Positions 1 to 20,840 of a stretch of DNA of 64,000 nt are shown here, piece after piece. Positions within the stretch are counted from its first letter, which is position 1. Every line of letters begins with the position of its first letter. A program made the translations under genes and the position numbers. Origin of the DNA: Akanthomyces muscarius (taxonomy: Eukaryota; Ascomycota; Sordariomycetes; Hypocreales; Cordycipitaceae); assembly GCF_028009165.1 (NCBI RefSeq), contig NC_079243.1, positions 1 to 64,000 on the forward strand. The letters run 5' to 3'. Below the pieces are notes generated by a model. That model was not told where the DNA came from, made no database searches, and worked only from the letters and a program-made list of their open reading frames with translations.

Positions 1-700
1 CTAGGTTTAGGTTTAGGTTAGGGCTTCTTCTATAGGGAACTTGAAAACATAGCTTAGGGTCTAGGTTTAGGTCTAGGTTAGGGTTTGAACGTGTCTTTTA
101 ACGCGAATTATTTCCGCTAGCGCGAAAATATAAGTCCTTTATAGTACTTTTAAATGTAGGGTCTAGGTTTGGGTTTAGGTTAGGGTCTCTTCTATAAGGA
201 ACGTAAAAAGTAGCTTAGGGTTTAGGTTTGGGTTTAGGTTAGGGTTTCTTCTATAGGGAATGTAAAAAGTAGCTTAGGGTCTAGGTTTAGGTCTAGGTTA
301 GGGTTTAAACGTGTCTTTTAACGCGAATTATTTCCGCTAGCGCGAAAATATAAGTCCTTTATAGTACTTTTAAATGTAGGGTCTAGGTTTGGGTTTAGGT
401 TAGGGTTTCTTCTATAAGGAACTTAAAATAATAGGGTAGGGTCTAGGTTTAGGTCTAGGTTAGGGTTGCTTTTAGAAGGATCTTAAAAATATAGCTTAGG
501 GTCTAGGTTAGGGTTGGACTTAGGGTTACTTCTATAAGGAATAGAAAAAGTAGCTTAGGGTCTAGGTTAGGGTTAGATATAGGGTGGCTTCTTTAAGGGA
601 CGTTAAAGGTAGTATAGGGTTTAGGGTAGGGTTAGACGTAAAGTGGCTTCTATAATATATAGAAGAAAGTAGTGTAAAGTATAGGGTAGGGTCTTATATA
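1..700 (+). repeat. Degenerate telomere-like tandem array
   Basis: About eleven units of roughly 59-102 bp, each carrying a telomere-like core (variants of CTAGGTTTAGGTTTAGGTTA ending in GGG), separated by spacers such as CTTCTATAAGGAACTT. A higher-order unit of about 220 bp, with a spacer containing ACGCGAATTATTTCCGCTAG, occurs at about 60-280 and again at 280-500 almost unchanged. Units decay rightward and merge into AT-rich DNA after about 700. The G-rich strand is the plus strand, so this is not the C-rich start expected at a left chromosome end. It is better read as interstitial or element-associated telomeric sequence, lying 5' of the retrotransposon. Confidence 0.85.
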
Positions 701-1213
701 AAATAAGATATAGTAGTAAGAAGAAAAGAAAGAACTATAAAGTGTAAGATAGAGTAAAAAGGTTTAATAATAGTATAGTACTCTACTAAAAAGAACTAGA
801 ATATAAGTAAAATAGGGTTTTATACTAGAATATAATAGTAAAGTAAATATAGAGTCTAGTTATATAGAATATAGTAAAGTAGTAAAAGGATCTCTTTTAT
901 TTCTCTATTAATAAAGAGACTATAATATAAAGATAAATACTAAAAATCTTTAAATTATATAGTATCTTAAATAGAAAAAAAGAACTACTATGAAAAATAA
1001 TAGAAAGTAACTAAATAGTATAATAAGATAAGGCTTATTTTATAGAAAAAGTCCTTTTTATATTTACTAGTATATAGAATAAGGTAGAATAGAAAGGTAC
1101 TTTTAGTATAGGGTAAGGGAATAAAAAAATAAAATAAAAAACTAGTTTAATTTAAAAAAGAAATAGAAATAGTAAATAGAAAAGTAATATAGATAGCTAA
1201 AAATAACCCTAAA
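700..1213. other. AT-rich decayed sequence without genes
   Basis: TpA-rich, CpA/TpG-poor DNA with stops in all frames. It looks like RIP-mutated continuation of the upstream telomere-like array. No gene seen. Confidence 0.6.
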
Positions 1214-1460
1214 AGAGTGTTAGTTACCTTCTAAGACAGGTAGGGGTCCTATAGGCGCTAGAAACAGGGGTCGAACTACGTGGGTAGCCCTGTACGACAT
1301 GGAGAGCCCTGTAGAGAGCTGAAAACAGGCCGGGAAGAGTGCTAGTTGCCTTCCGAGACAGGTAGGGGTCCTAGGGCGCTGGAAACAGGGGTCTAGTTAC
1401 GTGGGTAGCCCTGGGAGACATGGAGAGCCCTGTAGAGAGCTGAAAATAGGCCGGGAAGAG
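1214..1460 (+). repeat. Two tandem copies of a ~121-bp unit
   Basis: A unit starting AGAGTGYTAGTTRCCTTC and ending AAAAYAGGCCGGGA runs 1214-1335 and 1336-1456, with the start of a third copy after 1457. It contains internal short repeats (GGTAGCCCTG, GGAGAGCCCTGTAGAGAGCT). It is GC-richer than its surroundings and is probably part of the 5' region of the retrotransposon downstream. Confidence 0.7.
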
Positions 1461-1499
1461 TGTAAAGGCTGTGAAATTGCCTTGTGAGACTTAGAAGGG

Positions 1500-2390
1500 C
1501 CTAGATTCACCCTAGAAGACCTGTTAGAGTCTTTCCGAGGCCTTTCTAGCTATATAATACCTTTCTTTCCCTCTTTCTTCCTTCCTTCTCTCCCTTACAC
1601 ACACACTTCTTCTTTTCTTTGTTTTTCTACCTCTTCTAAGTAGTCTTTCTACTTACCCTCTTTCTTCTTAAAGAAAACATATCTTCCCTTTTTTACTAAG
1701 CACTTCTCTACTCTTTACTCTCTACCCTTTACTTCCTACTCTTTACTCTCTATCCTTTTTACCTCTTTACTTTTACTTACCTACCTTTACCTTATTATAA
1801 GGTCCTTTCTATTAGAGAATACTTTTATTCTCTTTAGATACCTTTCTCTACTAGAAGATACTTAGTATTTTCTACTAGATGTCCTATCTCTCTATAAAGG
1901 ATACCTAGTATCTTTATAGACGTCCTATCTATCTACTAGAAGTACACTTTAGAAGTCCTTTCTAGTAGATTTATCCAGTAGAGGCACACTTTAGAAGTAC
2001 CCTCTAGTATATACCTCTTTCTACTAGAAGAATCTTGGTTTTTCTAGTAGGTGGCCTCTCTCTTACCTACTTTTTAAAATACACTTTATAAGTGCCTTTT
2101 ACTAGTATACTGTCCTATCTTAGCCTTTCTAGCTATAAAGAAGTACCTAGTACTTTTAGTAGCTAAAAGGGTTCTCTTTTTACTAGAAGTACACTTTAGA
2201 AGTCCCTTCTAGTAGAAATCCTTTTCTTATAAGAAAGGCTGTGTTTTTTTTTATACCTTTTCCTGCTTTCTATAGTAACTACCACTATAAATAGCCCTCT
2301 AGAAGCCTTCTAGCACCTCTTATAGCTCTATCCACTATAACAGGTCTTAGAAGTGTCTTTAGCGGCCTCTTTCTAGTACTAGTACCTATA
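1500..2390 (+). other. Pyrimidine-rich 5' leader of the retrotransposon
   Basis: Strongly CT-biased sequence on the plus strand with recurrent CTACTAGAAGTACACTTTAGAAGTC-like motifs and TTCTAGTAG elements. No coding potential. Position and repetitiveness suggest the 5' untranslated region of the element that follows, but its border is not certain. Confidence 0.45.
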
Positions 2391-2411
2391 ATAGTAGCGC
2401 TAAGGCGTCCA

Positions 2412-2690
2412 TAACACACGTCGGCACACGTTGGCACACGCCAGCACACGCCCGGAGCCGCCAGCAGCCTTCCGGCACACGCCCGAAGCCGCTAGCAGCC
2501 TTCCAGCACACGTCGGCACACGTTGGCACACGCCAGCACACGCCAGCACACGCCTGAAGCCTCCAGCAGCCTTCCGGCACACGCCAGCACACGCCCGAAG
2601 CCGCCAGCAGCCTTCCGGCACACGCCCGAAGCCGCTAGCAGCCTTCTGGCACACGCCCATAGCCGCCAGCAGCCTCCAGCACTGGCCCAA
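2412..2690 (+). repeat. GC-rich minisatellite ahead of the retrotransposon start codon
   Basis: Imperfect tandem repeats built on CACACGCCCGAAGCCGCCAG, CAGCCTTCCGG and CACACGTYGGCACACG. The reading frame is open through the array for about 90 codons upstream of the first ATG at 2701, in frame with it, but only with a non-ATG start. This could be a translated extension or simply an open minisatellite. Confidence 0.75.
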
Positions 2691-2700
2691 GGCCGCTACG

Positions 2701-5700
2701 ATGGCAAAGGACAGGTGCCCGACCTGTAAAGGCTGGTACGCTGACTTGCTCGACCATATACGCAAAAACCACCCCCAAGCCCACTATACGGACCGTCAGT
2801 TGCAAATTACAGGCCTTGTTAGCTGCCCGGACTGTGGCACAGCCTGCCGTGGCCGCCACGGCGTGGCAACCCACAGAGCCAAGGTCCACGGCGTTAAAGG
2901 AACCTCCCAGGTCTCTACACTTCCACGGGTACACACACAGCCTATACAAGTCAAAGAGCCCTCCCCAACGCCCTCCAACGACTCGACCCTCCCTATAGAC
3001 CTCCTAGTACACCTAGAAGGCTCTATACAGGACCCGGAACCCTCTCCAACCCCCTCAGAAGGCCTCTACGACAGCCTAGAAGACTCCCTGGCACCCTCTA
3101 TCGAGCTAGGAGACGCTGGAAGCTGTACGCCAGCCTCCCAGGTCTCCTCCGTACCTGTGGAAGACTCTCCAGCGCCCTCTAGCGACCCTTTCGCCTCCGA
3201 AGACGACGTTCCAGCGCCTTCCCAGGCTATCCAGGTCCAAATAGGCACAAAAAGACGCCTATCAGGACCTTCAGAGGGTCCTAGACCTGCTAGAAGACCC
3301 GTCCCACCTGCAAAGGACGCCCCTAGCAGCCAGGAAGAGACAATCCGAGCCCCAGAGAGGCTAGCAGGCCTCCACAGCTCTATCAACACATCCCAGGCCG
3401 CTGCCTGGTTCGAACCACCCACCCCAGCACAAAGACCTACCCTATACATATCCTCCCCGAGCGCCCAGGAGGCCCACACGGCTACTCTAGCACCTATACT
3501 CGCCAAAACAGCTATACAGCAGCTACAACGCTTTATGAAGGTACCTATACCGACCTATAAGCTCCGACCTAGGCCTGCCCGGATCTTCCATCTAGTAGCG
3601 AACCGGCTTGCTGTAAAATTCGTCGCTAGGCCTTCGGAAACAACCCTCCTACACTTCCTACTACTCCCTAGGATCCTAGGGCTCGGGTTAGAGTAGGGAA
3701 ACCTCCCTAGGCTCTTAAAGGACTATCCAGACAACCTAGATACCCTAGAGGTCCCTACCTACCCTATACGAGAAGACACGTCCTTCTCTACCGCCGAAAA
3801 GAAGGCTACACACCTTCTAGAAGCCGGTTTCTTAGGAAGAGCGTCTAGGACGATAGTGGACAATTCGCCACTAGCGCCTATAGACGCCTCTACCCTAGAG
3901 ACCCTCCGTCAGAAACACCCTATAGGGCCTTCTGACCCCTTCAACTCCCCAACAAGCCCGTCTCCAGGCCAGAAGATCCCTATAGAAGCGATCCTATCCA
4001 CTATAAGCTCTATAAGCAGGGAAAAGGCCGCCGGACCGTCCGGCTGGACCCGGTACCTGCTAGACATCGCTATAGCGAAGGATTCAGCGGTCCTAGAGCT
4101 CCTACGGCTGCTGGCGGACATGATACGGCAAGGCACAGCACCTGGAAAGGACCTCCTAACGTCCTCACGGCTTATTGCCCTGAAGAAGAAGGACGGGGGT
4201 ATAAGACCTATCGCGATAGGCGATATACTCTATAGGGTAGCTACGAAAGCGATCCTAGCTACCCTATACCAGGACGGCATGCTCCTACCGAACCAACTAG
4301 GCGTTGGAAGCCCGGGAGGCGTGGAACCAGCGATCTTCCTCCTTTCAGAGGCAATTACAGGGGGGAATAAGCTAAAAGCACGCTCTATCGGCTCGTTAGA
4401 CGCCGAAAACGCCTTTAACGCCCTCCCTCGGAAGGCTATAGCGGCTGCTGTTAGCCTCTATGCCCCTGTATTTTACAGGTCAGCACAGTGGGCGTATAAC
4501 CACGCCGCGGTACTCTTCCTAGAGGACGGAAGCACTATAGCGAGCTCTTCAGGGGTACGCCAGGGAGACCCTCTTAGCGCCTTTATCTGGTCCCTAGCGT
4601 ACCGCCCTACCCTAGAGGCTGCACAGAAGGCCCTGCCAAAGGACGTCTTTATCTCGTACCTAGATGATACCTATATTATCTCTAGAGAGAAGGACCCTAG
4701 GGAAAAGGTCTTCCAGGCCTTCCACGGGTCCCCAATCAAGCTAAACCCCTACAAATCCACCTTTTATACCCTAGAAGAGGTCAGAAAAGAAGGACTCAAC
4801 GCCCTAGGAACCTATATAGGCCCCCTAGAGCAAAGAAGAGCCTTCCTACAGGGTAAGATAGATACTCTTAAGAGAGTCTTATCTACTCTAGAGAATATGC
4901 CTAAACAGCATGCTCTCCTTCTCCTACGAGGAAGTATTACCTTCCTACTTAGGCACCTTCTCAGGCAGCTAGCTCCTAGTGGCCTGGAAGACCTATACTA
5001 CGAAATCGACCGCCTTACCCTACACACCGTCGAAAAGCTCGCCTCGAAAGATCCCTCAGCACCTATCCAAGCCAACCAGGACCTTCTAGCCCTCCCAACA
5101 CGTATGGGAGGCCTAGGACTTACCCTATACGCGGAGATGCCTTACACACACTATAGCCACGCCCAGAAAGCGTCCTCTATAGTGCTCGACGGCTTCCAGA
5201 GAGGCCCCCTCCTCTCTAGCGCCCCTATAGCGCTCCCAACAGACCTCCCAGCGGACCTAGCGTCCTTCCCAGCGCCTAGCTGGGGCGTGCAGGTACCCCT
5301 GGAAGCCCCGGAAGGGCCCGGACAGGTCCGAATCCCCCCAGATAAGCCCTCTATAAAGGACATCAACCAGGGAAGGCTCCAGAGGGTCAAGGACCAGCTT
5401 ACCCTACACGGACAACGGGCCCTACTGGAAAATTCGACCTACCTTAGCCGGAAGTGGCTGGAAGTGCTGCCAACATCAAAACAAACCAAACTAGCAGACT
5501 TCCAAGTCACAGAAGGCCTTAGGGTACGTCTTATTCTTCCTGTACGCCCACTTAACGTACCCTGTACCTACTGTGGCTCTATAGTCACGATAGGACACGA
5601 GGATACCTGTAAAGGCGCTGAAAGGCACTGGCAAATCCGCCATAACGCCATCGTCAGGGCCCTGTTCAACGCAACCGTTGCTACCCTGGACCCAAAGCTC

Positions 5701-6705
5701 GAGCCGAAGCTCCAGGGTAACCAGGACCTCCGCCCAGACCTATCCACAACCTTAAATGGCTCGGTTAGGTACTATGACGTCCAAATTGTCGCTATAAACA
5801 AGGCGTCAGCACGAGAGGACCCCCAGAAGGCCCTACAGGAGGCTGCAGACGCTAAAAGGGCTAAATACAGGTCCCTAGGACCCCAATTTTACCCGATTAT
5901 TATCTCTGCTGGTGGCCTAATGGAAAAGGCAACCACAAAGACCTATAAGGACCTGCAGACCACTATAGGACCTGTGGCAGCTACCTGGCTGGACACAATG
6001 GTCTCTTTAGCGCTCTACAAGGCCCGGGTACACTCTAGCGCCTCTATCGCTAGGAAGCAGCCGCCTCCTAGCACCTCGTGGGCCGCTATACGCGAAGGGC
6101 TCCGGGGAGGACCTGCCACACAGACCCTCATGCCCCCCCAGCACGTCCAGCGGTCCTTTCAGCGCTCTTCAGCGCCTATAACAGCCGCCCAGCGCCCGTC
6201 AGTGCCTGCAGCAGCCGCCCAGCGCTCTTTAGTGCCTGCAGCAGCCGCCCAGCGCTCTTCAGTGCCTGTAGCAGCCACCCAGCGCCCGTCAGTGCCTGCA
6301 GCAGCCGCCCAGCGCCCGTCAGTGCCTGCAACAGCCGCCCAGCGCCCGTCAGTGCCAGCAACAGCCGCCCAGCGCCCTTCAGAGCCTACAGCAGCCGCCC
6401 AGCGCCCCACGGGCGCCTCCCGGTACATGCAGCACCTGTTAGAAGGAACCCAGCGCTCTCTAGCGCCTTCAGAAGGCTCCCAGCCACCGGAAACCTCGTC
6501 CCAGCGCTTCCAGAGGGAATACAAGGCTATGACAGCCGCCCAGAAGGCCCGGAACAGAGCCGCCAAGGGCCTGCCGGACCTCCCCTCCCCGCCGCCGCCC
6601 CTCCGGCGCTCCCAGCGCTCTACAACAGCCTCCCAGCAGCCACCCCAGCGCTCCCAGCGGTCAACCAGCTCCCCAACTGCCTCCCAGCAGCTCCTAGGCA
6701 GCTAA
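2701..6705 (+). pseudogene. Retrotransposon polyprotein: zinc finger, reverse transcriptase, RLE nuclease (one in-frame stop)
   Basis: The first ATG (2701) begins a frame of 1335 codons with a single internal TAG at 3694-3696; the frame is the same on both sides. Counting codons from 2701: two C2H2-like fingers lie near residues 6-60 (CPTC...H...H and CPDC...H...H). The RT follows with the first catalytic Asp in LDAENAF (about 567), the RQGDPLS block, and YLDD at 653-656. The endonuclease part has CX2CX7HX4C at 955-971, RHN at 980, RPD at 1011-1013 and Asp at 1026 (12 residues after RPD). A proline-rich tail carries 10-residue repeats. Everything needed for target-primed reverse transcription appears present. 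The lone TAG, a likely CAG to TAG change, either kills the copy or is read through. Leu CTA codons are unusually common. Confidence 0.85.
6164..6406 (+). repeat. 30-bp in-frame tandem repeat in the polyprotein tail
   Basis: Eight copies of a 30-bp unit encoding ten residues of the form QRPSVPAAAA lie downstream of the endonuclease domain. Differences are scattered substitutions (Ser/Leu/Pro, Val/Glu, Ala/Thr). The array is open in other frames too, which produces spurious ORFs. Likely a disordered linker or tail of variable copy number. Confidence 0.9.
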
Positions 6706-6760
6706 GAGCCACTATAACGCCCCTCTACCCACTATAACACCTATAGTAACACCCTCTACC

Positions 6761-6967
6761 AGCTAGAACACACATTCTAGCACCTTCTAGCAGCTAGAAC
6801 ACACACTCTAGCGCCTTCTAAGCAGCTAGAACACACGCTCTAGCACCTTCTAGCAGCTAGAACACACACTCTAGCGCCTCTAGCAGCCAGAACACGCGCT
6901 CTAGCACCTCTATCAGCTAGAACCCACGTCCTAGCACCTTCTATAGCTAGAACACATATTCTAGCAC
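6761..6967 (+). repeat. 31-bp tandem repeat in the retrotransposon 3' UTR
   Basis: About seven copies of a unit resembling CAGCTAGAACACACACTCTA followed by GCACCTTCTAG start about 55 bp after the stop codon. Each contains a short CTAGAA...TTCTAG palindrome. A role as 3'-UTR recognition sequence for the element's reverse transcriptase is only a possibility. Confidence 0.85.
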
Positions 6968-7129
6968 CCCCCCTCCACCTACCCTATACCACCCACCCTA
7001 TACTACCTACCCTATACTCTCTTTCTTAGGACACTCTCCTCTTTACTTTCTTTCCTTACTATTACTTTCTCTAAATGTATTATTAGAAAATTCCCGAGCG
7101 AGCTAGCTTAGATAACTCAATTTACAGTT

Positions 7130-7330
7130 TCTAACCCTAACCACTACCCCCACCCTCCAAAAATTTATACTTCAACCACAACTTCAACTTCAACTTCAAC
7201 TTCAACCTAACACTAACTTCTCAACCTCACTTCACTTTCTACACAAACTACACTTCAACTTCAACTTCACTTTTAACACAAACTACACTTCAACTTCAAC
7301 TTCAACACAAACTACACTTTCAGAGGTTAA
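7130..7330 (+). repeat. Telomere motif and CTTCAA microsatellite
   Basis: CTAACCCTAACC at about 7130 (C-rich orientation, opposite to the array at 1-700) is followed by runs of the hexamer ACTTCA/CTTCAA to about 7320. No genes. This marks the probable 3' flank of the retrotransposon. Confidence 0.8.
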
Positions 7331-8480
7331 GAGGCTAAAAGGCTAAAAGGCAAGAAAGTAGAAAAGGTAAAGAGCTAAAAAGCTGAAGAGGGAAAGAGGT
7401 AAAGAGGCACAGACGTAAAGTAGTAGAGACGTAAACAGGCTCACTACAGCTCCAGCTCCAGAAGCACAAGCCCCGCACGTTGCACCAGCCGTACTCCAAC
7501 CTCCTGTGTGAAGAAGCCGTCTGCTAAGGAAAAAAGCAGCAAAAGGCTTGCCTCACACCTTGTCCACCCACAAGAAAGGAAAGAGAAGCGAAAGGGTGGG
7601 AGGGCGGAAGTGAAGGGGGAGGGCGCTCTCGGCAACGAGTTGCGAAGACAGGCGTAGGCACTGACACTCTTAGGACCAGTCCTCTACACAACCCTTGACC
7701 CTACTCTAGGCATAACTTACACTCAGGGTTGGTGTTAGGGTACGCCAGGGTTAGGGTTCTGTTAGGGTTGTCCGTTGAGAGTAGTGACTAGGTCTCTGCT
7801 TCAACTTGTAGCTCCAAAAACACGCGCTTCCCGTTCCAGCGAAGATGTACTGGTCCCGCCTCCAGTGCCCTAAGCTCTGTCACCGAGGAAGAAGGACAGA
7901 GAGCGAAAGACTCTCCTCGCACGCTGTCCACCGGAAGGAAGAAAGGAAGGAAGAGACGTAAGAGGGTCGGATGGTTAGTGTCTAGACTGTTTCAGCGAGG
8001 GGTTACGAAGAGAGGGTCAAAACAATCCTCCGTCTTCCCCTTCACCCTGCTGCACGCACTTTGTCTCGCAGCGCCCTAACCCTAAGTGGAAGGGTTATGG
8101 TTGGTGTTGGTGTTGGCGTTACGGCTCGGGTGAGGGTGAGGCTGAGGGAGAAAGGGAAGGAGGGGCGGGTAGGGGCGGGAAAGGAAGAGGAACAGGACAG
8201 CAGCAACGAAAGGAGTAACTAAAAAAAAATGGTAGAGTTTAGTTAACGAGAAAAACTAAACAGGCAAAAAAAAGAGAGGGACCGGGACTGAGACAAAGAA
8301 CTGGAAACCCAAAAAAAAAGGGGGGGGAAGAAAAGAAGAAAAGGAAAAAGAGCTGAGCAGAACAGGCTACTAGAATATACTCTTAGTCCGTGCATTATGA
8401 GTCTTTCGTGAAGACTGTCCTACTTCACCAACTAGTTTTCATCAACTCATTAACTGCTACACCGAACCCTACCCTGCAGC
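7330..8480 (+). repeat. Diverged duplicated subtelomeric segment with interstitial telomere motifs
   Basis: Two related stretches, about 7440-7800 and 7800-8150, share order: a GCTCCA start, a GTCCACC...GAAAGGAAGGAAGAG-type purine run, an AACGAGTTGCGAAGA / GCGAGGGGTTACGAAGA block, then telomere-like G-rich motifs. The first ends in CAGGGTTAGGGTTCTGTTAG; the second has CCCTAACCCTAA followed by GGTTGGTGTTGG. No convincing coding sequence. A purine-rich, homopolymer-containing tract follows to about 8350. Confidence 0.55.
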
Positions 8481-9010
8481 ACTTATACAGTTACGATCTG
8501 CTTATTGGTTGGCATAATACGAAGCGCCTCGCTGCGCCATGCCGCGTGGTTTGAATATTTGCTCTCGCCATGTTTTTTTTTCATCGCTAATCCATACCCG
8601 GGCCGTAACGAGCCAGGCCCGCTGCCTGGCGCCGTCCTCCCGATCAGATTCGGCTCAAAGCAGCTTCGCTTGATTTTCTTTTGGGACAAGATACTTAGGC
8701 AGTTGGGTTGGAGGCGTTGTACAGAGTATTGTAGAGGGTCTATTGAAGAATCCCATTTGAGCTCTTGAATGTAGTGGCCTTCCCTATATCCACCATGCTT
8801 TTGTTTGTAGTACGAACCTTTGGCTCATCCGCATTGCGATCCTGTAGATTATTCGCAGCGCAGCTTTGCGCCCTATGCCTGGCCATACCCTGAACTGGAC
8901 ACAATACTCAGAGAATCACAGCTTGGCAACAGCTTTGGTCTAGATGCCAGCTCAGCGGTGCGGCTCTATATCACACAATCGATGTTTTTTAAAAACCCTT
9001 TTCTTTTAAA
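8480..9010. other. Intergenic, downstream of the SET gene
   Basis: GC-normal sequence. Short ORFs on both strands show no recognisable domain. A lost or unrecognised 3' extension of the SET gene could lie here, but no convincing splice-compatible exon was found. Confidence 0.4.
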
Positions 9011-10017
9011 TCAACCATCCGCTGAAAACTCCTCTTTGGCTGGGGCAACTGCTTGCAACTCGGCGCCTTCTTCTGCTTCGCATTTGCTGCACGAACAGTG
9101 AAACCCCCACAACGAGCGTAAATGCTGGCGGCGTGATTGGAGGGCCATCGCGGGCTGCAGATACGATATTGTGATTTCTGTCCCGGCGAAAATCGTCGTC
9201 GTAGCCGTCACATATTGCGTAAGGGAAGCCACATCGAAATGATATGCAGCGTTGGGCCCGCAGTCGTGGTTCAGCATCTTCCATAGGTCAGCGTCTGAGT
9301 GGTGCTAGATCTCGCGCTAGCCTGTCAGTGTGGTGCGCCACGTACTGAAATATCCGGGAAAACGGCGTGGTATGCCTTGTCCCCGACCATCACCGCAAAC
9401 GCGTTGGTTCGAATCCGATCCGTCAAGGCGTCGACTTGCCCAGCACCGTCTAGCTGCCAAAACATGGAGCGCGTTCGTAGAGGCAGTGCGGCGACCGCCT
9501 CGTGGTGAACCTCCACCCACTGCGCCCTGTCCAGGTCTGTGTACACGTCCAAGTCAAGCAGCAGCACCGGCCGACGAGCCATGACTACATCTCCGCGCTG
9601 CAGCGTCCGCGTAGCGATCAGACCGCGGCCCCGGCCGGGAGTGTTGACCACGTCGAGCAAGCCGGCCTCTTCCGTGTTTTGCGTGGAAAAAGCATCTTCT
9701 TCATAAAACGCCGCTAGTCGTCCAAGGTAGTCGGCCTGGTCGGCTGTTCCCAGTACGCCTATGCCGCCGTGACTTCCAAACTCGTGCGAAGAATATAGAT
9801 GAAAAGAGCCTAAGGACTTTTGCAACCTGGCCGGTAGCGCCTTTCGCCCTAGTGTTAGACGTCGCAGCACGCCCGGCGCTGGGCAATTGGTCCCCTCGGC
9901 TTGCCGCGCATAGGGCCATCCGGCCGACAGAAGCCGTGGCGCCCACAAGCACGCTGTACAATCACGTACCTGATCTGTGAGCAGCAGCAAAGAAGGCAGC
10001 AGTCCCGAGAGCTTCAT
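9011..10017 (-). CDS. Secreted-type SET-domain protein
   Basis: Two exons, 10017-9346 and 9277-9011, joined across a 68-nt phase-0 intron (GTACGT donor, CTGAC branch site, AG at 9278); 312 residues. The Met at 10017 gives a hydrophobic leader (MKLSGLLPSLLLL). A longer open extension to 10146 lacks this leader. The SET core starts with TPGRGRGLIATR and RGDVV, continues with IRTNAFAV and FPDIS, and the splice joins this to MLNHDCGPN, the SAM/substrate pseudoknot motif. It ends in GTEITISYL and a post-SET-like WGFHCSCSKC. This matches a family of ascomycete SET proteins with an N-terminal signal sequence, so the substrate may not be histone. It stops soon after the post-SET cysteines, earlier than I would expect for the family, so the C-terminus may be truncated. 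Confidence 0.8.
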
Positions 10018-10543
10018 GTCTGGCAGACGAAATGCATCCGCGCACGAGCGTACGTTGACGCTCTTTTCATGGTACGGTCGGAAGGGAGGAGACATCGGAA
10101 AGGACTGTATCGTCCGTCCGGACCGCCATACGAGCCACCTTGACACGGCTTCATCTTACGGTGGCGCCGGTGGCCTACCCCACCACGCCGTTGAGCGCTA
10201 ATGCAGACTTGTATGGAAGCTTAGCTTAAGCTTGTCCTAGTGGCGTACAGGGCTTAGGTAGCCCTGCAGCCTGATTTTTTCCGTGGTAGCATGCGCTTTT
10301 GCTACGCTGGTGGCGCGTGACTGTTGTTCTTGTCATAGCCTCGTGAAGCCGAGACGATCGATGGCCTGCTCATTTCCCGATGGGCCTATACAGTCATATA
10401 CAGGGCGGGGCGTGTGGTGCCAGGTCTGACCAGGGTTGTCCATTGGAGTTTGGAAGCAGAGCGAGTGTGGCATGAAAATAAAGTCTGGACGCCGAGCCCC
10501 GAGCCTTTTCCTCTTTCTTCCCATCACCGCCACGCGATACGAC
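10018..10543. other. Divergent intergenic region
   Basis: About 0.5 kb between the divergently transcribed SET gene (-) and the small-protein gene (+). It contains a CT-rich stretch (CCTTTTCCTCTTTCTTCCCA) just before the ATG at 10544, as is common in fungal promoters. No further gene seen. Confidence 0.45.
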
Positions 10544-11112
10544 ATGGGAAAGATTCTCAACTTCACACTCGGTGATCCTCTTGCGGTAAGTTCAATTGGC
10601 TGTCATCCGGCCGACGGCGTAGAGCTGACGCTCGGCAGATCCAACAGTCATGGGTGTTTGACAGAGTCGCTTGCGGGCGTCTACCTGAAGAGTATCACTT
10701 GCCCATATTGTGCCGAGCCACGTTTTCTGCGAAGGAAAGCTCCGATGCTAGCCCCTATCCACTAGGTGCTGGGGATGAGTGGGAGTTGCTCCGGCCCTGC
10801 TGCCCCTTGGATCCTGACACCACGCAAGGCATAGCAAACAGATACTACACAGAGTATAATTGCATATCGAAATACTGTGCTACGTCAAACCAGACGCTCG
10901 CGGAAGGCTGGGAGGATTGTGCCAAGGCTGCGGTGCAATCAGGGGCGAAGAATTCGACGCCCATAACCGTCGACAGTAGGTGTGAATGGGTTGACTATGG
11001 CCTGGTGAAGAAAGGCCGAGAGGCGGAGGGCCAGGGCGCGAGCTTCCGGACTACAAAATCACGGGGCGTGGTGTTTTCGCTCGTGGTGGCTCTCGTGGCT
11101 TACATGGTATAA
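10544..11112 (+). CDS. Small cysteine-containing protein with C-terminal hydrophobic tail
   Basis: Exons 10544-10585 and 10639-11112 with a 53-nt intron (GTAAGT donor, CTGAC branch, CAG acceptor, phase 0); 171 residues. The start was chosen for its CGACATGG context. An in-frame upstream ATG at 10472 would add a weak leader (APSLFLFLPITA). The mature part has about eight cysteines, including RPCCPLDP and YNCISKYC, and an Asn-rich ATSNQT region. The last 15 residues (GVVFSLVVALVAYMV) are hydrophobic, like a GPI-attachment signal or tail anchor. If the 10472 start is used, this would be a GPI-anchored surface protein. I do not recognise the family. Confidence 0.65.
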
Positions 11113-11755
11113 ATGAAAGTGGATCCATCATAGTTAGGTCGTTGACGGAGCCCGCTCGTAGCGGCCCTGTACAACGACTACGAGCTGCCCTGTCTAGACT
11201 AGGAAGTAATACTACATACACATTCTAAAACCACTATTACTTCCCGGTAGAATAAGTCTTCTATCATACTCCTCACTTCTTCTTCATGACATCTTCCTGT
11301 GACCCATTTTGGGGTGAGATTTATTCACGATGCACCGAGATTCTGCGCCTGCATGGCGTGACACCAGCTCAGCAATCCACGCTTCCTCTTTTTCCACAGG
11401 CAAGAAACAACAATACTTCACGCCGTCTTCAGAAAAGGGACAAGTACCGGCGTCTCCAAGGCAGCAGCCTTATAGACCAAGGTACGCCGCCAAGTCTTTC
11501 ATGGAGACTGGCACGTCACGCGTCATGCACGCCGCCAATAAAATATCATAGTGCTCGCACATAATGCAAACAAATTGGTTGGTTCTACCCTAATCGGCGC
11601 TAGCTGATGGTCGTCCAGACTTTATTGTAAGCCACTACGCCCATTTGCCTAAACCCACTTGCCTGAAATGTCAAGCTTACCTCTCTAGCCAGATAGACCA
11701 GACTTCACACTGGCGAAGCCAGGCAGTCTCTTGATGGCCCTCGACTAAAGCAGAG
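11113..11755. other. Intergenic, no gene recognised
   Basis: Convergent 3' space between the small-protein gene (+) and the 410-residue secreted protein gene (-). A short plus-strand ORF at 11286-11564 has no recognisable features. Confidence 0.45.
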
Positions 11756-13177
11756 TTACTCGGGCGCTGGAGGAACGCCCCCAATACACTCGTCCTCTCC
11801 ATCACCGTCCGGGTCCGGAGTGTTGCAAATAGACTTGTAGCTCGGATGTTGCTGATCCATTGGCTTCATCACTCCATCTTGCCACTCGTACCCTAGTATT
11901 GTTAGTATGAGCGTATAGAAAAGAGCATGAAGAATAAACAAGGACAAGAAAACGGAACGTACGCAGTGCCCACAGAGCAGAAGCCTCGCCGTCGACGAGG
12001 TAGGGCGAAATGCTGCACTTGTCTGTGAGAGTTTCGACATCGCCCTTGCAAGCCGGCACGCTTCCGCCTTTTCCGACAATCTGCAGTTCTGACTTCTTCT
12101 TGGAGATGGTGCCACAGCTTTCGATCAGTTTTGGGAAGAAGACCCATCGCGTCCACATCTCTGGGTCGGCCGCTGGATCAGCTGTGCGCTCGATGGACTC
12201 CATTTTAGCGGAACCATGGCTCCCTATACGCTGATAGTTAGTATGAAGCCCTCATCATGATTCGATAGGGGAGAAAGGCAGACTGACACTCATATGTAAC
12301 ACCTGCTCCGAACACTTCCTTGACCACACCTTCGAGACCGGCGGAGAAGCCTTGGCTGATAGACGTCTCTTTGCCCTTGGTCAAGGCCAGTGCCTGGCCT
12401 GGCGGCTGCGACTCTCCGGCCTCGCCAGGTGCCCGTGTCTCTGGTCCAAGCAGGCCGGTACGTTTCTGCTCGCAGAAGGTCTGGCACGAGTTCATGTTGG
12501 GCCGAATCGGACCGCAGGATCCGTCTTCGTTTAGCGTGATGCCCTCGGGCCTGGGACAATCGGTGCGCGACTTTCCAAAAAAGCTGACCGGGCAATCTGT
12601 TGCGGTCTCGTCGGCCCGGGCACCGAGAGGGCTGTCGCCCACAAACTCGAGCCAGCTTCCTCTGCCGCGTTTTCTCACCGAGCCTGGCGTGTCAGGTGGG
12701 TTCTTGCCGCCAGGTGGCTTGATGTTGATGCCGGCAAAGATCCCGTACGCGGCAAAGGTGAGGTTGTTGACCACGTGCACACCTGTGAACGTCCCAAGCT
12801 TGTTGCAGTCCTTGAATAGCTGGGCGATGCCACGCTTCACCTCACCCTGGGTAATAGTGCGGTTACGCGCGCTGCCGTTGCAGATGGACATGATGGTGGT
12901 GTTATGGCGCTTGTACGCGCATTCATTCATGGCCATGGGCAGTCCCGCTGGGGTAGCGGCCAGGTTCTCCTCCAAGAATCGACCGGCTTCATTGAGATCC
13001 TTCTGCTCCAGACTGTCGCTTGTAAGTTTGCATAACCGATTTTGTATCTGCTAGACGCTTGAAAATAACGCACCCTCTGTCTGCATAGCATTCGCTGTAA
13101 GAGTCGCTGTGGCGTGGTTCTGCAACAGAGCCACATACGACGGAGCTAAGTCCAAGAAGGACGAGAAAACCACGCAT
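11756..13177 (-). CDS. Secreted 410-residue protein of unknown function (four exons)
   Basis: Exons 13177-13074, 13018-12288, 12223-11963 and 11892-11756 join in one frame (1233 nt). Introns are 55, 64 and 70 nt; two carry perfect TACTAAC branch sites and the donors are GTGCGT, GTCAGT and GTACGT. Residues 1-20 are a signal peptide (MRGFLVLLGLSSVVCGSVAE). The body has scattered cysteines, NGSARNRT glycosylation-type sites, a CQTFCEQKR motif, a Gly/Ala-rich GFSAGLEG...FGAGVTYEW stretch, then WTRWVFFPKLIESCGT. The tail is acidic (DPDGDGEDE). This resembles a group of fungal secreted proteins I associate with chitinase/killer-toxin-like loci, but that link is from memory and weak. No catalytic motif was seen. 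Effector, cell-wall or defence roles are all possible. Confidence 0.8.
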
Positions 13178-14911
13178 TTTAAGACCAAACAGGAGCGTTC
13201 GGTAGGAGAAATGCTATTACGCTGCTGATATGAAAGAGAAGCATAAGGGATTCCTCGTCTCTAGGTCAGCGCGGCGAGTATTTATACCTAGCTTTCACGA
13301 TACTGTTGGCCTCTAATCGTATGTTGACAGCTATGAACCATTTCACTAACCTGATCTGTGTACTTACGCAGGAAAAAGTACCATGCTGACGGAGCATGCA
13401 TGACTATATTTCGCGCGGTGGCTTTATGCAGCGGAAAGGCGTCGCCATCGTCGATTATTATGGTCATCTTGCAGGTTCTTTATCCCCGTCGTCGCTCGCG
13501 TAGTAGTATAAGCCACGTACACTGGGCCGGCTGGGGTTTTAGAGCGTACTCTACGGTGAGGTGGATCGTGGCAAGGCTGCTGGGATGGAGATGAACTTCG
13601 AGGACTTTCTTCGTGATCTGTGCTATTGGTGTACCTTGGCGCCACCAATGCGGCGCTAATGCCGCCAAGGCTCAGAATTTGTGTGAAGTGTGACCGTTGC
13701 CAGAGTGCGCTAGGCTGCGCAGCCTGATTTGGACCCATGGCGGCGTCCAGGAGGAGCAAGCCTGGCGGAGGCCGCCATTTATAGCGTATGGGGCTGAACG
13801 AACATAGCTCCGTCCGCCGCTCCGATGGCATGTCACCCAAGGGCATGTTGTGAGGCCGCAACGAGCGACTGGTCTACTACTACTTTATATGCGCGTATCC
13901 ACAATCTACGCTCTGCTAATTTGTCACTTGTTTGAGGATATAGCGGCTTGCTGTTAGATTCCCTTTCTTTCTTAATTTTCCGAATCAACTGGTAGTGATA
14001 GAGTGCCCGTTGGAAGCGGCCCTCTATGAAGGGTCTTAGCTGGACTTCGTTGTCAAGTCGATGGTTGGCATGATATTTGCTATGCTTGAGGCTTATGCTA
14101 AACCACGGCCTGCCTTACTACTCGTAACTCGAAACCCTGTCCAAGTAGTGAGCCATTCCCTGCGCACGTACCCTCCTAATTAGATCCACACGGAAGAATA
14201 TTACGATTAAATGTGTTACCGTGGGCGGATACCTCTTGGCAGGAAGACAATAGTTAAGAGTCCATGGTTGACTTGCTTTACATCGCTCGCTGCACGCTGC
14301 GAAGGATATCCCGCCTCTACCCGGGGCCACAGTGGAAGTCAGGCCAAGTTCACACGCAAGTGCCAGAAGACTGGCAGCCTCTCCCACCTGTGTTGAGGAA
14401 GACCGCGTCTGAATCTAGTACGGTCGGCCAAATAAGGCGCAAGTGAGGACACCGAAGCAATAGCAGGCGGCGACATTGTCGACATCACGTCCCCGTCAAA
14501 CTAAACAAGAACCAGGTTACCAGGGCCGTTTGGCCAATTTTCCTTGCTCACCGCCTAGATAGCGGCGAATTTTAAATGGTCAGCTATGGGTATGCCTTGA
14601 CGAAAGAGCAGATCCAGGATGCCGAGGAGGAAATCTCGCGGGAGGAATCCACATACAGATTCGCTAGACAAGTGGACAGGCCATCCATCGGGCGTCAGTT
14701 AACCAACTAAACAAAAGCCCGACCAATATCGGCCTCTCGTCGACGTAAGGGTTCGTTGGTTCCAACATCAGCTTAGTCGACTGGTCTGGGCGAGGTCACG
14801 GCGGCAGCGTCGGCCGCGTCGGCCGCGTCGGTAGTCGCGACGCCTCATGAACTTGTCACGCGGGAGTAGCGGTACATGGAAGTAGTATTAGCAAATCGTA
14901 TGTTCTTCGCT
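13178..14911. other. Intergenic region without a convincing gene
   Basis: GC-normal DNA. A minus-strand ORF (13861-13424) is open for 145 codons but is Pro/Ser/Arg-rich without domain signals or clear splice partners. A GTCGGCCGCGTCGGCCGCGTCG microrepeat lies near 14810. Most of this may be promoter of the secreted-protein gene and 3' flank of the large gene. Confidence 0.4.
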
Positions 14912-17900
14912 CTATAGACTTGCGTCACTATTGTCGCTTTCAGCACCGGCAGTGCTGTTCCCACTGCTGCGCTCTATGTCTTCGTCTTCGTCCGCGCTCT
15001 CGTCACCCTCGTGTAGAGCCCTATCGTCAACATATCTATACGTCTGAGGTGCTTCTGCTTGGTCTAGAAATTCGAAAAGTAGCCGATCATCACCTGACCC
15101 GTTATGCATGCTCTTGATTTCTTCTAAGAGTCTAAGTTTGGTGATAATCAGGCTCCGTTTACCTGAAGGGTCCTCAAAGAGCTGCTCAATAACGTTAACA
15201 AATTCTTGGAGACGGCATAGCTCACCACGGGCTTGGGCAGACGGCGGTTCGGTGAGCAGAGGCATGGCACCAACGGCAGCTCGGCTGGCGTGCCGCAGAA
15301 AATTCAGGACAGGTAGTGTGGGCAGGATCACGGTCGGCGTCGCCCCCCCATGCGGCGAACCACTCTCGACCGGCACCTCCCACAGCTGAAGGTCGATCGA
15401 ATCCGGATCATTGAAGTTCCAGAAGCCAGATGGTGGACTCCCTGGCAAGCTCAAGTGCCGAGGTCCGGCCACCCGCAAGAGACATGCAAAGCACCTTTGA
15501 AGATCACCAGCCAGGCGCACCACCGTATCCAATGGTTGGCGAGCTACCCAGCCTGTTGTTATGGACAGTCCGCGCACCGCGCGGAAACTTTGGACGAGCT
15601 CTGCATTTCTATAGTGAAGCGCCTGATATGCTCTTTTCCACTTCGGTGAAAGAGGGAAAGCCGTTTTTTTAATCTAGACGTTCGCGTCTTAGTATAATGC
15701 TGAATCTACTCATGACCATCTACGTACCTCGAACGTGTCCGCTAAGTACCGGTATGGGTTAATGAGGGGAGCCCAGAATTGTATGCGAAAGAATGTTGGC
15801 AGATGGTTATAGCAGCAGCTCCGTCCGTGGCTTACGCTCATCTCTTTCGTCCGGTCTGGATTGAACATGACGGTGATGTAGCGACCGATGGTGTCCCGAA
15901 ACAGGTTGCCAAATGGGACCGCGTCCGGGTGGCGCGCTGCGTTGTATAGATCGCGTAGTCGCTCGTAGAAGACCCGGAACGCGTTCCCGGCCCATGTCAC
16001 TTTGTTCGGCGTCTCGAACAGTGTGTCGAACACATTTCTGCTCCATAGCTGCTCTTTGGGAGCCCGTTTTGCCATCCAGTTTGGTAGGCCCGTAGGGAGG
16101 TGTGGTGTGCTGTCCGGCGTCCCTGCGAGCTGCCGAATCTCCCACGCCTCGTCCAGAATATCCAGTATAGTATGCGGGGTGACCATGCGCCCAGTAGGAG
16201 TTTGAATGGACTCGAGAGCTGTCGCGAGCGAGTTTGGTCCATTGGGATACTTACGCCGTATTTGGCTGTTCTTTACTTGGTCGTATTCCTCCAATGCCTT
16301 ACGCCAATACAGCAACAGCTTGCTCAGCATGTGGAGCCCGTATTCTCTTGCCACCTCCTGCGCTGCAATGTGAACCGCCGTTTTTTCGTCCGTTATGGCT
16401 ATGTGTAAGCTGGCTCGGTCGTGTTCGCGTAGATGTGCTGCTTTGAGCATTAGGTCTTCGATGATGTACGCAGCCGACACGTTACTACACGCAAAAGCCC
16501 GGACACTAGACTGGGCTGCCCATTCCGGGTGCAGAGGATTGCGAGGTATGTACAATTGCAGCAGCTTCGGAATGGACAGGTGACCGTGCATCCAATCGAG
16601 CTGGTCTAGTCTGAGCCAGAGAAGGCCTAAGTCGCAGACCGTTTCGCGTAGGCCGAGTCCACGTCGTGTGTACTGGACACGCCGTCCATCTTTGATCTGC
16701 TTCAACTGCCATTGGTTCTCCCATATCCATTTGTCGGCGAAGTAGTCCCTATCGCTATTTAAGGACGACACGAGCAGTCGCAGGAAAAGCTCGGCGGTAT
16801 AGAAGCACACGAGTGACCGTGAGCTCCGCTTGGCATGGGAAGATGCCTCGTCTTTCTCGCCGCTGTTAGCGAAAATATAGTCGAGTGGTTTGACAAACCG
16901 GCGCGCCATGGTGCAGACAAAGTCATTCACGTCTGCTGTTGGCAACACCCAAAAAGGCTTATGCTCAAGATCTCCCACGGACGTACAAGAGGCACCACCT
17001 ACAGTTTGGTGGTCTAAAGTCCCGTCCTGCTCCCCTCGGTTAAACTTACCACCATGAAGCATCGTGAGGATGGCGTCAAGCCGAAACGTGATCTCTTTGC
17101 GGACGGCGTACCCGTTCGTGGGCGCGTCGTGGTCTGCTACAGCATCAAGATGGCGTTTATTGGCTTCCCACGCCCCCACCAGCTTCCGCCTCTGTGGCGC
17201 CCCGGTAATGGCGCTGGCACGGTCATGGCCCGCAGTGAAAACATCTTTCATCATGGTGTCTGTCAGTGCCAGGGCTGCAAGCGAAGGCGCGGCAAAAGGC
17301 CGGTAATCACTGGCAATGACAGAGAATCGTTCTTTATCACAGTTGTACGCCTTCGCATGGACGACACCTAGTTTTGGACAGCTGGGGTGGCCAGGGTCGG
17401 TTGGTTGGGGCACACGCGCCGCCACACTTCGCACTTTGGCGTCGTAGGTAGCCGCATCACGAAGGTGGTACGTGCGAAAGTACTCGGACTGGAGCCCCAT
17501 ATCTAGCGAAATGTCTCGAAGATCAGCGTGAAATTTCTCTAGACATCGTTTCTTCCACAAAAGTGTGACGGGGACTTCGTCCCGACCCTCTGTGGTGGAC
17601 GCCGTGGCCAGATCGCGGAGCCCGATATCCAACCAGCAGGACCGGAAGTCGAGGAACATCGGGTTGAGTGCGCGCATCACATTGCTCACAAAAAGGTCCA
17701 AGGACTGACCAAGAGTCGGCTGCGCAAAGCTGTTCTTGGTGTCATGGACCTGGAATAACAGTTTGGGGTTCTGGAAGTAGGCAAATGCAGATGCGCCGTT
17801 TATGACGGAAATCCTGATTTGAGCGCATCTTGCCTGGAAGGCCTGCCAAAATTCGCCAAGGTACTGCCCTGGAACGGTGTAGCGTAAGTGGGCGGCACGA

Positions 17901-19930
17901 GAGCTGTCGTCTGCCGACCAGCGGTCCGTCGCTGGTTTCTCCTGATAGGATTTGCACTTGGCATTGGCGATGGCAAATGTGGAAGGCATTTCTTGTCGAA
18001 ACAAAGCCGGTAGCGTGGACTGGACGGCTGGCAAGATAGCACCGTTCACCAGTTCCTCCTGGCGCGCGAGCGACAGGGTGTAGGGAGACTTGGCGGCACG
18101 TTGCTGTCGTGCTCGCTGTGGCTTTACCGGCTTGCCATCGTTGGTGTTGGGGAAAAAGACAAACACGTCCATAGGAATGCCGCCGGCGACGAACGAACCG
18201 AGCAGCGTGTGTCGTGTGTGGCCCAGGTCGACGCCATGCGGCGCGATGATCTGATTCCCCGCGATGGACCGCGTATAGGGCGGGTTGAAGGAGAGCCGGA
18301 ATGAGTTGTTGTCAGGCCGGATGGCGGCGAGGCTTGTGGGGCCGAGCCAAATACTGTCCACATCCCATGCTCTCGTGATGCGCACGTCGTGTATGCGGAT
18401 GTCGCACTCCGACTTGGACAGCGACAGCGATGCTGGTGGTTGGGCAAGAAGTGACTGCCATTGTCGACCCTCGGTTCGCTCGTGCTGCGGTTCCAGTGCA
18501 GGCTCGAGCCTATCTCGGATCCACTGTGTCATTTCCTGTATGGAAAAGCAGTCCCGGTCTACATCAGGCGACTGCTGATGGGGCTCTTGACCTATATGCT
18601 CCGTCAGCTCTGCAGATATGTTGGTATGTAGAGGATACATACAAGCGCAGCGACCAGACAGCGTCTCTTGGAATATGCGCAGGTAGGCATCGGATTGACG
18701 TGAGAGAAAGGTACGACCGGCGGTAGACTCAGCCGACTCAATGGCGGCAACAATCTCATCAAGAGGATGGGGAGCAACGGATGATGCTGACCCAGCTTCA
18801 GTGGGTAGTGCGTGCTGAGGTCCGTCTGGAGAGGACAAAGTCTCGACGCACGGCGTAGAATCGTCCCCAACATACCCCTCCACACTGAGATCCCAACTCT
18901 CATCCGACACAAACAAGCCGGACTCATCTCTCGCACTGCATTCTGGCTCAGAATGGTTGTCTTGGTGCTCACCCGCGCAGTCGCTGACCGTCTCGTTCAC
19001 GTTTTTCGTCTCGTCGGCGGCGGACGGGTGGTCGCGTTCTTCCTCGTCATTCTCTGCGGTGGTACCAAAAAAGGTCTCGCCCGTCGACACAACAATCACC
19101 GATCGTACAAGCGTGGCGTCCGCTCCATTAGCTTCCTCTGCAGTGTGCTCATCGCCCGGGTCGGGCGGGTCGGCCGCTGTGGGGAAGGTCGCACTTGTCG
19201 ATTCGACTGGCGGTTCAATCGGAGCGGGTGACAGGATACGCACTTGACTCTGGGGTGTGTTTGCCTCGTCGATGTGCTCCTGCCAGCGCGTAATGCGCTG
19301 CCTGGCCCTGTGTTGCTGGACTCGACGGGTGGAGGAAGATGTTTTGGTCGCCGACAGTGTAGGTGGAGCGTCTTCACCTCGCTTATCCGGGATAGAGACA
19401 CTGCCAGTAGCAGGCCGTAGAGCAAGGCAAACAGGTGCGCTCTTCACCGTTGTTTTCTCGTGCTCTCTTGAGACTTTCGTTGTTTGGTCTGAGAGGAAGG
19501 CGTTCGGCGTAGGGCTCTTGCGCTCACGGAGGTTGTATCGTTGCTCGGGTGCTGTCAGACATGGTGGACTCTGCCTCGTCAAGTCAGTTGTTTCAACGCG
19601 GCCCAAAGCAGCACTATGAAGACCATATGTCTCGCATGACTTTTGAAGTTCGTTCTTCGAACGGCTTTGTTGGTCTTGCCGTTGACCATCGTCGGTGTCT
19701 GGGACATTGTCTTGTCCGGCATGTGTTGACGCCGCGTTGTCTCTGATCTGCTCTTCAGCATGATCGACTGTGTTTATAATGCTGATGGCAGGTTCTTGCG
19801 CCACATCGGCAATGGTTTGGTCTCGTCTTGCTTGTGCAGCGGCTTGTCGTCGACGGAATGACCGCTGTCTCTCCAATTCCCGCCGAAGTTGTTGCTCTTC
19901 GGAGGTGAGACTCACTTTTCGCCGCGTCAT
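14912..19930 (-). CDS. Large 1654-residue protein of unknown function
   Basis: Two exons, 19930-15728 and 15673-14912, joined by a 54-nt phase-0 intron (GTACGT, TACTAAG, CTAG); 4965 nt. The ATG at 19930 starts a very basic, probably helical N-terminus (RRELERQRSFRRRQAAAQAR). Residues of about 40-400 are low-complexity, acidic and Ser/Thr-rich. The remainder looks folded, with conserved-looking blocks such as VDSIWLGPTSLAAIRP, PHGVDLGHTRH, VFVFFPNTN, CWLDIGLRDL and PFWVLPTADVNDFVCTMARR. The C-terminus is acidic (ADEDEDIERS). No transmembrane segment, nuclease or transposase signature was seen. I believe similar large proteins recur in accessory or subtelomeric regions of other ascomycetes, but I cannot name the family or a function. 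The frame is fully intact, with no RIP damage, despite its position beside the RIP block. Confidence 0.75.
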
Positions 19931-20700
19931 GACAATCCTTCAAGTCACGTAGTTGGGTACCTGTATACACGTTTTATTTTCCAACTTGGTTATTATTATA
20001 GCAAGAGAGGATAGAGATGGCTGTGTTGGGTCCTATTGCAACCGCATCCTTTTATCTAGGGTAGTGCCCCCGGGCGCAGACAGGAAAGAATGTGCGACGA
20101 CACCACCGCTTGGCCATTGTTGTCTCTTTCCACCCCCTATTCTGCGCCTGTGCACTCGCCGTAAAAAGAACGAGCGGGTGCAGTGTGATAACGCGTCGCA
20201 GTTGAACAGATCATCTCTTCTTTGTTTACACATGGCCGTCACAATCACACGAGGCTGAGCTATGGACAAGGGGTCCGACCAAGCATTTCGACCAACGGGA
20301 GGTACTGTGGCTTTGACAGGGGTACCGACCATCCATTTCCATGGTCTGCATTGGCTGCCTTGCCCTCGGTGGGGAAAACGCGCTCGCCAGAAGCCGGGAT
20401 GTGTAACGCTGCGGCCCGTGCCGTATCGCAGCTTGACATCTGCGTCGTCTCGAGTCAGATCTGCTTCTGCTCCATCCTACCGCACGTTAACAGGAAGATG
20501 GCATGCGCAATCCGGAATACCACTGATTTGCAGTCTAAAATCTTCGTAGAGCCGACCAAAATGTCCATTACAGCCTGCTGCAGTCAGCTATCAACTTTTA
20601 AGAGCGTGCATCTTTACCGCCCGTTCGCTGTTCCCACCTCTTGCTCTTACTCTTGCTAGTCACTTCACTTTTTTTTCTGCCAAGTTTTTTTCTATTTGCT
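19931..20700. other. Promoter side of the large gene and edge of the AT-rich block
   Basis: Upstream region of the 1654-residue gene. Plus-strand ORFs here lack domain signals. GC content falls abruptly after about 20690, where T runs lead into TpA-rich sequence. Confidence 0.5.
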
Positions 20701-20840
20701 ATCTAACTGTCTAACCCGACCCCAAACCGCCCTCTAATCTAAGAAGACTTTTTTTAGGGTTTATTATTTTCTAAACTTATAGTAAATTTATTAGCTTTTA
20801 AATTAGTATTAGCTTAATTAATATCTATTAAAAGAGAGGT

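Follow-up and report, generated by a model that had tools for sequence, protein, structure and literature searches.

The first 64,000 nucleotides of contig NC_079243.1 of Akanthomyces muscarius (RefSeq assembly GCF_028009165.1) are here called the window. They form the beginning of contig C3 in a genome of 36,193,312 bases in 12 contigs (C1-C12, with L and R for their left and right ends). The window opens with an element, E, which is very probably a telomere-targeted non-LTR (long terminal repeat) retrotransposon of the MoTeR/FoTeR kind, bearing a restriction-like endonuclease (RLE) beside its reverse transcriptase (RT). The layout of this copy, with its open reading frame (ORF) and 3' untranslated region (UTR), is as follows.

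1..7130, forward strand: element E, a telomeric RLE-type non-LTR retrotransposon; copy without its 5' terminus and with one in-frame stop
1..700, forward strand: 5' array of TTAGGG-like variants with periods of ~59 and 220 bp; the G-rich strand is the forward one
2415..2696, forward strand: minisatellite in the leader, 5' of the first in-frame ATG (2701)
2701..3693, forward strand: N-terminal ORF portion carrying two C-x2-C...H...H motifs (2716-2784, 2824-2889; motif search), aligning with the MoTeR1 N-terminus
3694..3696, forward strand: in-frame TAG stop at codon 332 (translation)
3697..6705, forward strand: ORF part with RT and RLE, stop codon included (Pfam, motifs, tree, fold)
4183..4809, forward strand: Pfam RVT_1, E-value 4.9e-14, with YLDD at 4657-4668
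5563..5778, forward strand: endonuclease motifs, namely CCHC finger (5563-5610), RHN (5638-5646), RPD (5731-5739) and the following D (5776-5778)
6160..6407, forward strand: coding 30-bp tandem repeat, 8.3 copies, giving the 10-residue tail repeats (repeat scan)
6755..6968, forward strand: 3'-UTR tandem repeats (repeat scan)
7059..7130, forward strand: 3' end common to the long and the short element, the presumed RT recognition end (sequence comparison of copies)
7131..7142, forward strand: telomeric CTAACCCTAACC at the 3' junction, an interstitial telomere (read in the window)

The endonuclease of E follows the pattern C-x2-C-x7-H-x3-C-x9-RHN, then RPD-x12-D. The same motif set (CCHC, RHN/D, R-x-D-x12-D/E) is present in MoTeR1 and in the relatives P0001, P0003 and P0041, and its residues are invariant or nearly so in an alignment of 65 rows. 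At the N-terminus, the zinc-finger models of Pfam match below the cut-off only, and the fingers are represented instead by the two motif matches. An NCBIfam scan gave a sole, weak match to a group II RT, while in a predicted-fold search the top matches of the protein were R2 proteins. On sequence and predicted fold, E is the carrier of a non-LTR RT and an RLE, and the tree, the endonuclease motif and the fold put it together with MoTeR1, the Fusarium elements and R2-type enzymes. An earlier reading made from sequence alone (the sequence-only reading) had listed the zinc fingers, the YLDD of the RT, CCHC, RHN and RPD-x12-D, all of which were recovered by motif match. Its 10-residue tail repeats and 3'-UTR repeats were confirmed as well. 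The motifs do lie in one frame, as it had proposed, but that frame is broken by the TAG. Similarly, its description of the copy as nearly complete holds for the length and not for the function, given the in-frame stop and the missing 5' terminus.

The placement of E in the genome was traced by its 3' end. A 20-base piece of this end, searched through the whole genome with up to 3 mismatches, was found at 32 places, 31 of them real and one a chance match (3 mismatches, C1 at 4.02 Mb). All 31 real ends, including that of the window, were found again when CTAACCC was added to the pattern. Every one lies at most 62,924 bp from a contig end (16 of the 24 contig ends are occupied), and every one has its 5' side pointing outward, with 18 forward on left ends and 13 reverse on right ends. 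The same search found no dispersed copies away from contig ends. At the 29 ends with readable flanks, the element closes with ..CAGTTT or ..CAGTGT, after which CTAACCC comes in one constant register, mostly for 2-3 units, before other DNA begins. These flanks sort into 17 junction classes that share this single register of the telomere repeat. Since one class covers 9 places and two others 3 each, classes, and not places, are to be counted. Four classes enter another piece of E or of the short element described below (C1R 7415028, C2L 31075, C4L 24748 and the first site of C7/C8/C9), and at least two enter a subtelomeric duplicon. Thus, the telomere-associated RLE retroelement proposed earlier is borne out, and the search for further copies met them at contig-end regions on telomere repeats only. 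Two short sequences were observed at such places: a 10-bp variant, CCCTAAGTAA, stands next to the telomere repeats at 3' junctions (e.g. C6:3851318-3851340), and exact CCCTAAGTAACCC occurs at 10 genome sites, 9 at E 3' junctions or duplicon borders and one at C11:98469.

On the outer side of E, four tandem CCCTAA units are confined, in the whole genome, to C6R, C7L, C8R, C9L and C10R (39 overlapping matches). All five telomere-capped ends read, from the tip inward, (CCCTAA)n, CCCGGA repeats, GGGTCACCCTAACCTTTGTATTTACTAGG and E; at the C7, C8 and C9 tips, a single CCCTAA stands among the CCCGGA repeats. The 5' boundary of E was found seven times in the genome, two of these inside C4L, and CCCGGA repeats precede it in 7/7. 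The last unit before it is CCCGAA in four and CCCGGA in three, the latter being the near-identical C7, C8 and C9 copies of one haplotype. On other contigs, but not in the window copy, the true 5' boundary can be seen with telomere repeats on its far side.

Just inside the boundary comes the array seen in window 1-700. It holds 32 TTAGGG-like extended words, where 500 dinucleotide shuffles gave 1.1 on average and at most 5, and 16 plain TTAGGG, where the shuffles averaged 3.5 with a maximum of 9. A like array follows the 5' boundary on C6R, C7L, C9L and C10R. It belongs to the element itself and is inverted relative to the left-end telomere. Of the telomere-like flanks once claimed for this copy, the TTAGGG-like words and the telomeric junction at 7131-7142 are real, but the array lies inside the element and is no flank. 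A search for a G-quadruplex pattern (loops up to 7) in the window copy of E gave no match.

C1L, C3L, C5L and C6L all start at the same base of E, and these starts could be taken for natural chromosome tips. This was set aside, because on C2L, C2R and C3R a duplicon runs straight into base 1 of window-type E, with two bases between; for the same reason, the left edge of the window is probably not a chromosome tip. Eight contig ends lacking an E 3' end (C4R, C7R, C8L, C9R, C10L, C11R, C12L and C12R) may likewise be assembly breaks, because no telomere repeat array was found in their outermost 240-300 bases.

Another kind of element shares both ends of E. On C6R, a short element consists of an E-type 5' boundary, the arrays, the minisatellite, ~0.7 kb of unrelated DNA and the last ~72 bases of E, followed by telomere repeats. 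It has ~3.4 kb of 5' sequence in common with E, and the protein search of the genome found no RT match in it. The unrelated middle exists in three copies: C6R, C4L and a 5'-truncated one on C1R adjoining a long element; two of the three short elements keep the 5' boundary. On C4L, a short and then a long element stand head to tail, with CCCTAA-type and CCCGGA repeats between them. The minisatellite is read as 5' leader because it precedes the first ATG and is kept in this partner. The sequence-only reading had taken it for a coding leader, which was rejected because the first in-frame ATG comes after it. On C6R, immediately inside the short element, lies a piece of a DUF3723 gene (PF12520, E-value 3.3e-32; L055:1-1146, minus strand).

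The relatives of E were sought by a protein search, from which the best 120 of 361 matches were listed. Among these, the top named match is from Cordyceps fumosorosea, with 62% across 61% of the query; for MoTeR1 of Pyricularia oryzae the figures are 43% and 78%, and one unnamed protein stands at 79%. An RT/RLE tree of 51 rows was built by a quick method, with two R2 segments as outgroup, the Shimodaira-Hasegawa-like approximate likelihood-ratio test (SH-aLRT) as sole support and long branches flagged. In this tree E groups with the 79% unnamed protein, Cordyceps and Lecanicillium (SH-aLRT 100), and this clade nests in a 25-row clade with MoTeR1 and Fusarium proteins (SH-aLRT 100), so that the RT does not fall outside the RLE relatives sampled. 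Rows from Kwoniella, Wallemia and Tilletia fall outside the 25-row clade. Judged by these neighbours, the host would probably be a hypocrealean fungus. Among the matches listed in a further protein search, from the relative P0119, were mostly unnamed proteins, besides two from a sponge, and no CRE/SLACS.

Cnl1 of Cryptococcus has a telomeric habit, and R2 is targeted to ribosomal DNA. The Kwoniella relatives of Cnl1 have 30-31% identity to E and branch outside the ascomycete clade, and R2, the outgroup, has 18%. MoTeR1 has an RT, an RLE and an N-terminal finger region as in E, with 42% identity over 927 columns and 49% over 93 residues of the N-terminus. Its endonuclease motif is RAD where that of E is RPD, and the ~2.7 kb leader of E, with TTAGGG-like and minisatellite arrays, sets the two apart.

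As published, MoTeR1 and MoTeR2 resemble E and its partner in having the 5' end tipward, a telomere-like 5' tract and TTCGGG at the border, in the pairing with a second element that has the same two ends around an unrelated middle, and in head-to-tail arrays with telomere repeats between (PMC7367193, PMC8381367). The 5' tract of MoTeR1 is given there as TTCGGG(TTTGGG)n (PMC7367193); the border TTCGGG is common to both, whereas the variant unit is TCCGGG in E. For MoTeR2, the sequence in common with MoTeR1 is given as 860 bp on the 5' side and 77 bp on the 3' side, with 786 bp of unrelated sequence between (PMC7367193), against ~3.4 kb of shared 5' sequence and a ~0.7 kb middle in the partner of E. 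FoTeR of Fusarium oxysporum, as described in PMC12857005, resembles E in placement, orientation, RLE motif type and upstream tandem repeats, and shows repeat-induced point mutation (RIP) in some strains, which is likely for one copy of E as well; its motif is RAD and not RPD. FoTeRs are also said there to adjoin telomere-linked helicases often, whereas none was seen in the seven duplicon frames scanned near E. That paper, which assigns MoTeR and FoTeR to the CRE clade (CRE1/2, SLACS, CZAR), uses none of the words MoTeR2, non-autonomous, TTTGGG or variant telomer- in its main text. In a literature search, with most subscription journals outside its coverage, none of the titles listed described such an element in Cordyceps, Beauveria or relatives.

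The state of the copies bears on whether E still moves. A protein search of the genome gave 29 rows from 27 scored candidates, and 17 loci have a full or nearly full RT/RLE match. Five loci were read directly (window, C1L, C1R, C2R and C5R), and in each the reading frame that starts with the ATG is interrupted, in C5R before codon 332 and in the others at it. Five further loci have fully open frames: C8int (1334 residues), C10R (1354) and C7L (1344), as well as C8R and C9L, whose open-frame length equals that of C7L; the C4int copy has four stops. Omega among the open copies C8int, C10R and C7L lies at 0.06-0.10 (788 codons), a value in favour of past selection for a working enzyme. Selection on the stop-bearing copies was also considered, as the window and C1R differ by 9 synonymous and no other changes. 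It was rejected because these changes cluster in 5910-6021, as expected from gene conversion. Relative to C10R, the inner C10 copy shows C>T/G>A at 48 positions and the reverse at 17 in 1525 bases, with 33 of the 48 at CpA, much as RIP would give.

Inward of E the window continues with the duplicon.

7143..20738, no strand assigned: subtelomeric duplicon flanking E and not part of it; constant right end, differing right flanks

Near-identical copies, whole or partial, are present at ten ends (C1L, C2L, C2R, C3L, C3R, C4L, C5L, C5R, C6L and C11L), and at nine of these E stands directly before the duplicon, with ~100% identity over many kb. This near-identity can be real homogenisation or the assembler's repeat consensus. 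Diverged copies are found on C4, C7, C8 and C9. The right end is CCGCCC(T/C)CTAAT in all 16 cases read, but what comes next takes 14 forms, among which CTAACCC or E pieces of differing length are frequent. We read the duplicon as the product of repeated capture of a chromosome end via an interstitial telomere tract, followed by insertion of E into that tract. The idea that the duplicon is itself mobile and has a fixed end, either as a Helitron-like element ending in CTAA or as an RNA-primed block, was set aside because such capture and insertion explain most of the 14 right flanks; they account poorly for the flanks at C3L, at C3R (proximal) and on C4 at 43 kb. The 1409-residue ORF of the duplicon (15713-19939, minus strand) matched nothing in Pfam, and the protein search gave no homologue of it.

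Farther in, window 21001-45000 is an AT-rich island with a GC content of 11-42% per kb and no stop-to-stop frame of at least 120 residues, and looks like RIP-degraded repeats. At 57865-62286 (minus strand), adjacent frames carry PNP_UDP_1, NPHP3_N/NACHT and many ankyrin repeats, the ankyrin region being a 102-bp array of 15.4 copies. This has the look of an NLR-type (STAND) locus whose repeat domain has been homogenised.

If E is telomere-targeted, its cycle may be pictured as follows. The predicted endonuclease would nick the G-rich telomere strand at ...GGGTTAG, or a chromosomal 3' end with this sequence would serve instead. From that primer, the RT would copy the element RNA outward, starting at the conserved ~72-nt 3' end. 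The new DNA would end in the telomere-like TTCGGG(TCCGGG)n and seed telomerase, and the inserted copy would become a new subterminal end. The short element would move by borrowing the RT of E. The interstitial CCCTAA tracts left behind may serve as sites of end-to-end recombination, by which subtelomeric blocks, including the stop-bearing E haplotype, would be spread.

Several observations weigh against this reading. The 1002-residue stop-interrupted frame of the window type is found in 11 of the 17 loci, ten of the 11 being identical in protein; nine of the stop-frame loci share their flank, which an assembler repeat consensus could produce. As the copies exchange sequence, the omega pairs are not independent, and the junction classes are not all independent insertions either. 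The proximal telomere tracts are short, and their single register could also stem from a CTAACCC tail encoded by the element. Moreover, no stable RNA fold was found for the shared 3' end (z +0.82 and -0.02).

It is possible, albeit doubtful, that E is now mainly a passenger: break-induced replication between telomere tracts would copy it along with subtelomeric blocks, and retrotransposition would be rare or absent. The nine contig ends at which E is joined to the same block, the clustering of the differences between C1R and the window, and the prevalence of the stop-bearing frame would all fit. However, transposition too is suggested by the 17 different classes into which the 29 readable 3' junctions fall, by 5'-truncated copies of differing length beside the duplicon right end, by the low omega among open copies, and by a partner in which only the two ends of E are kept. 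It is highly improbable that the many terminal copies were made by the assembler's repeat consensus: the identity across nine ends and the contigs cut at the same base would suit such an artefact, but C1R, C4int, C8int, C10R, C7L and C10int are diverged copies, and the 17 junction classes are incompatible with one consensus.

In Drosophila, HeT-A and TART stand with the 3' end inward and the 5' end outward at the tip. E resembles them in polarity and differs in its RLE and in a host genome with a telomerase domain and TTAGGG caps. Telomeres maintained by E in place of telomerase are most unlikely and were rejected: E does lie directly under the telomere at every capped contig end, and several contigs start inside it, but true (CCCTAA)n caps are present, a TERT domain was found (the telomerase RNA-binding domain PF12009, E-value 1.2e-23), and the contig starts at one E base are more likely assembly cut points than tips.

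On the telomere-targeting reading, a further idea is offered tentatively, as one that may well be wrong: E could be self-capping. The telomere mimic TTCGGG(TCCGGG)n at its outer end would be extended by telomerase, the start would be in a fixed register, and each insertion would rebuild a usable end. This design (mimic tract, ~72-77 nt of shared 3' end, RT-less partner) might then be an old trait common to the elements of Pyricularia and the Hypocreales.

E was earlier thought to be a possible new family; a new member it is, but MoTeR of Pyricularia and FoTeR of Fusarium are of the same kind. It adds a further fungal lineage, with Cordyceps and Lecanicillium as the nearest named relatives, to the few with telomere-targeted elements. 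Nor is the plan of MoTeR1 and MoTeR2 confined to rice blast, with a telomere-mimic tract and an enzyme-coding element that has a partner lacking the enzyme. The partner element and the variant mimic tract are the most informative of the new details. The contrast between TTCGGG(TTTGGG)n and TTCGGG(TCCGGG)n, together with the single register of the 17 classes, makes the cut site and the extension by telomerase directly testable.

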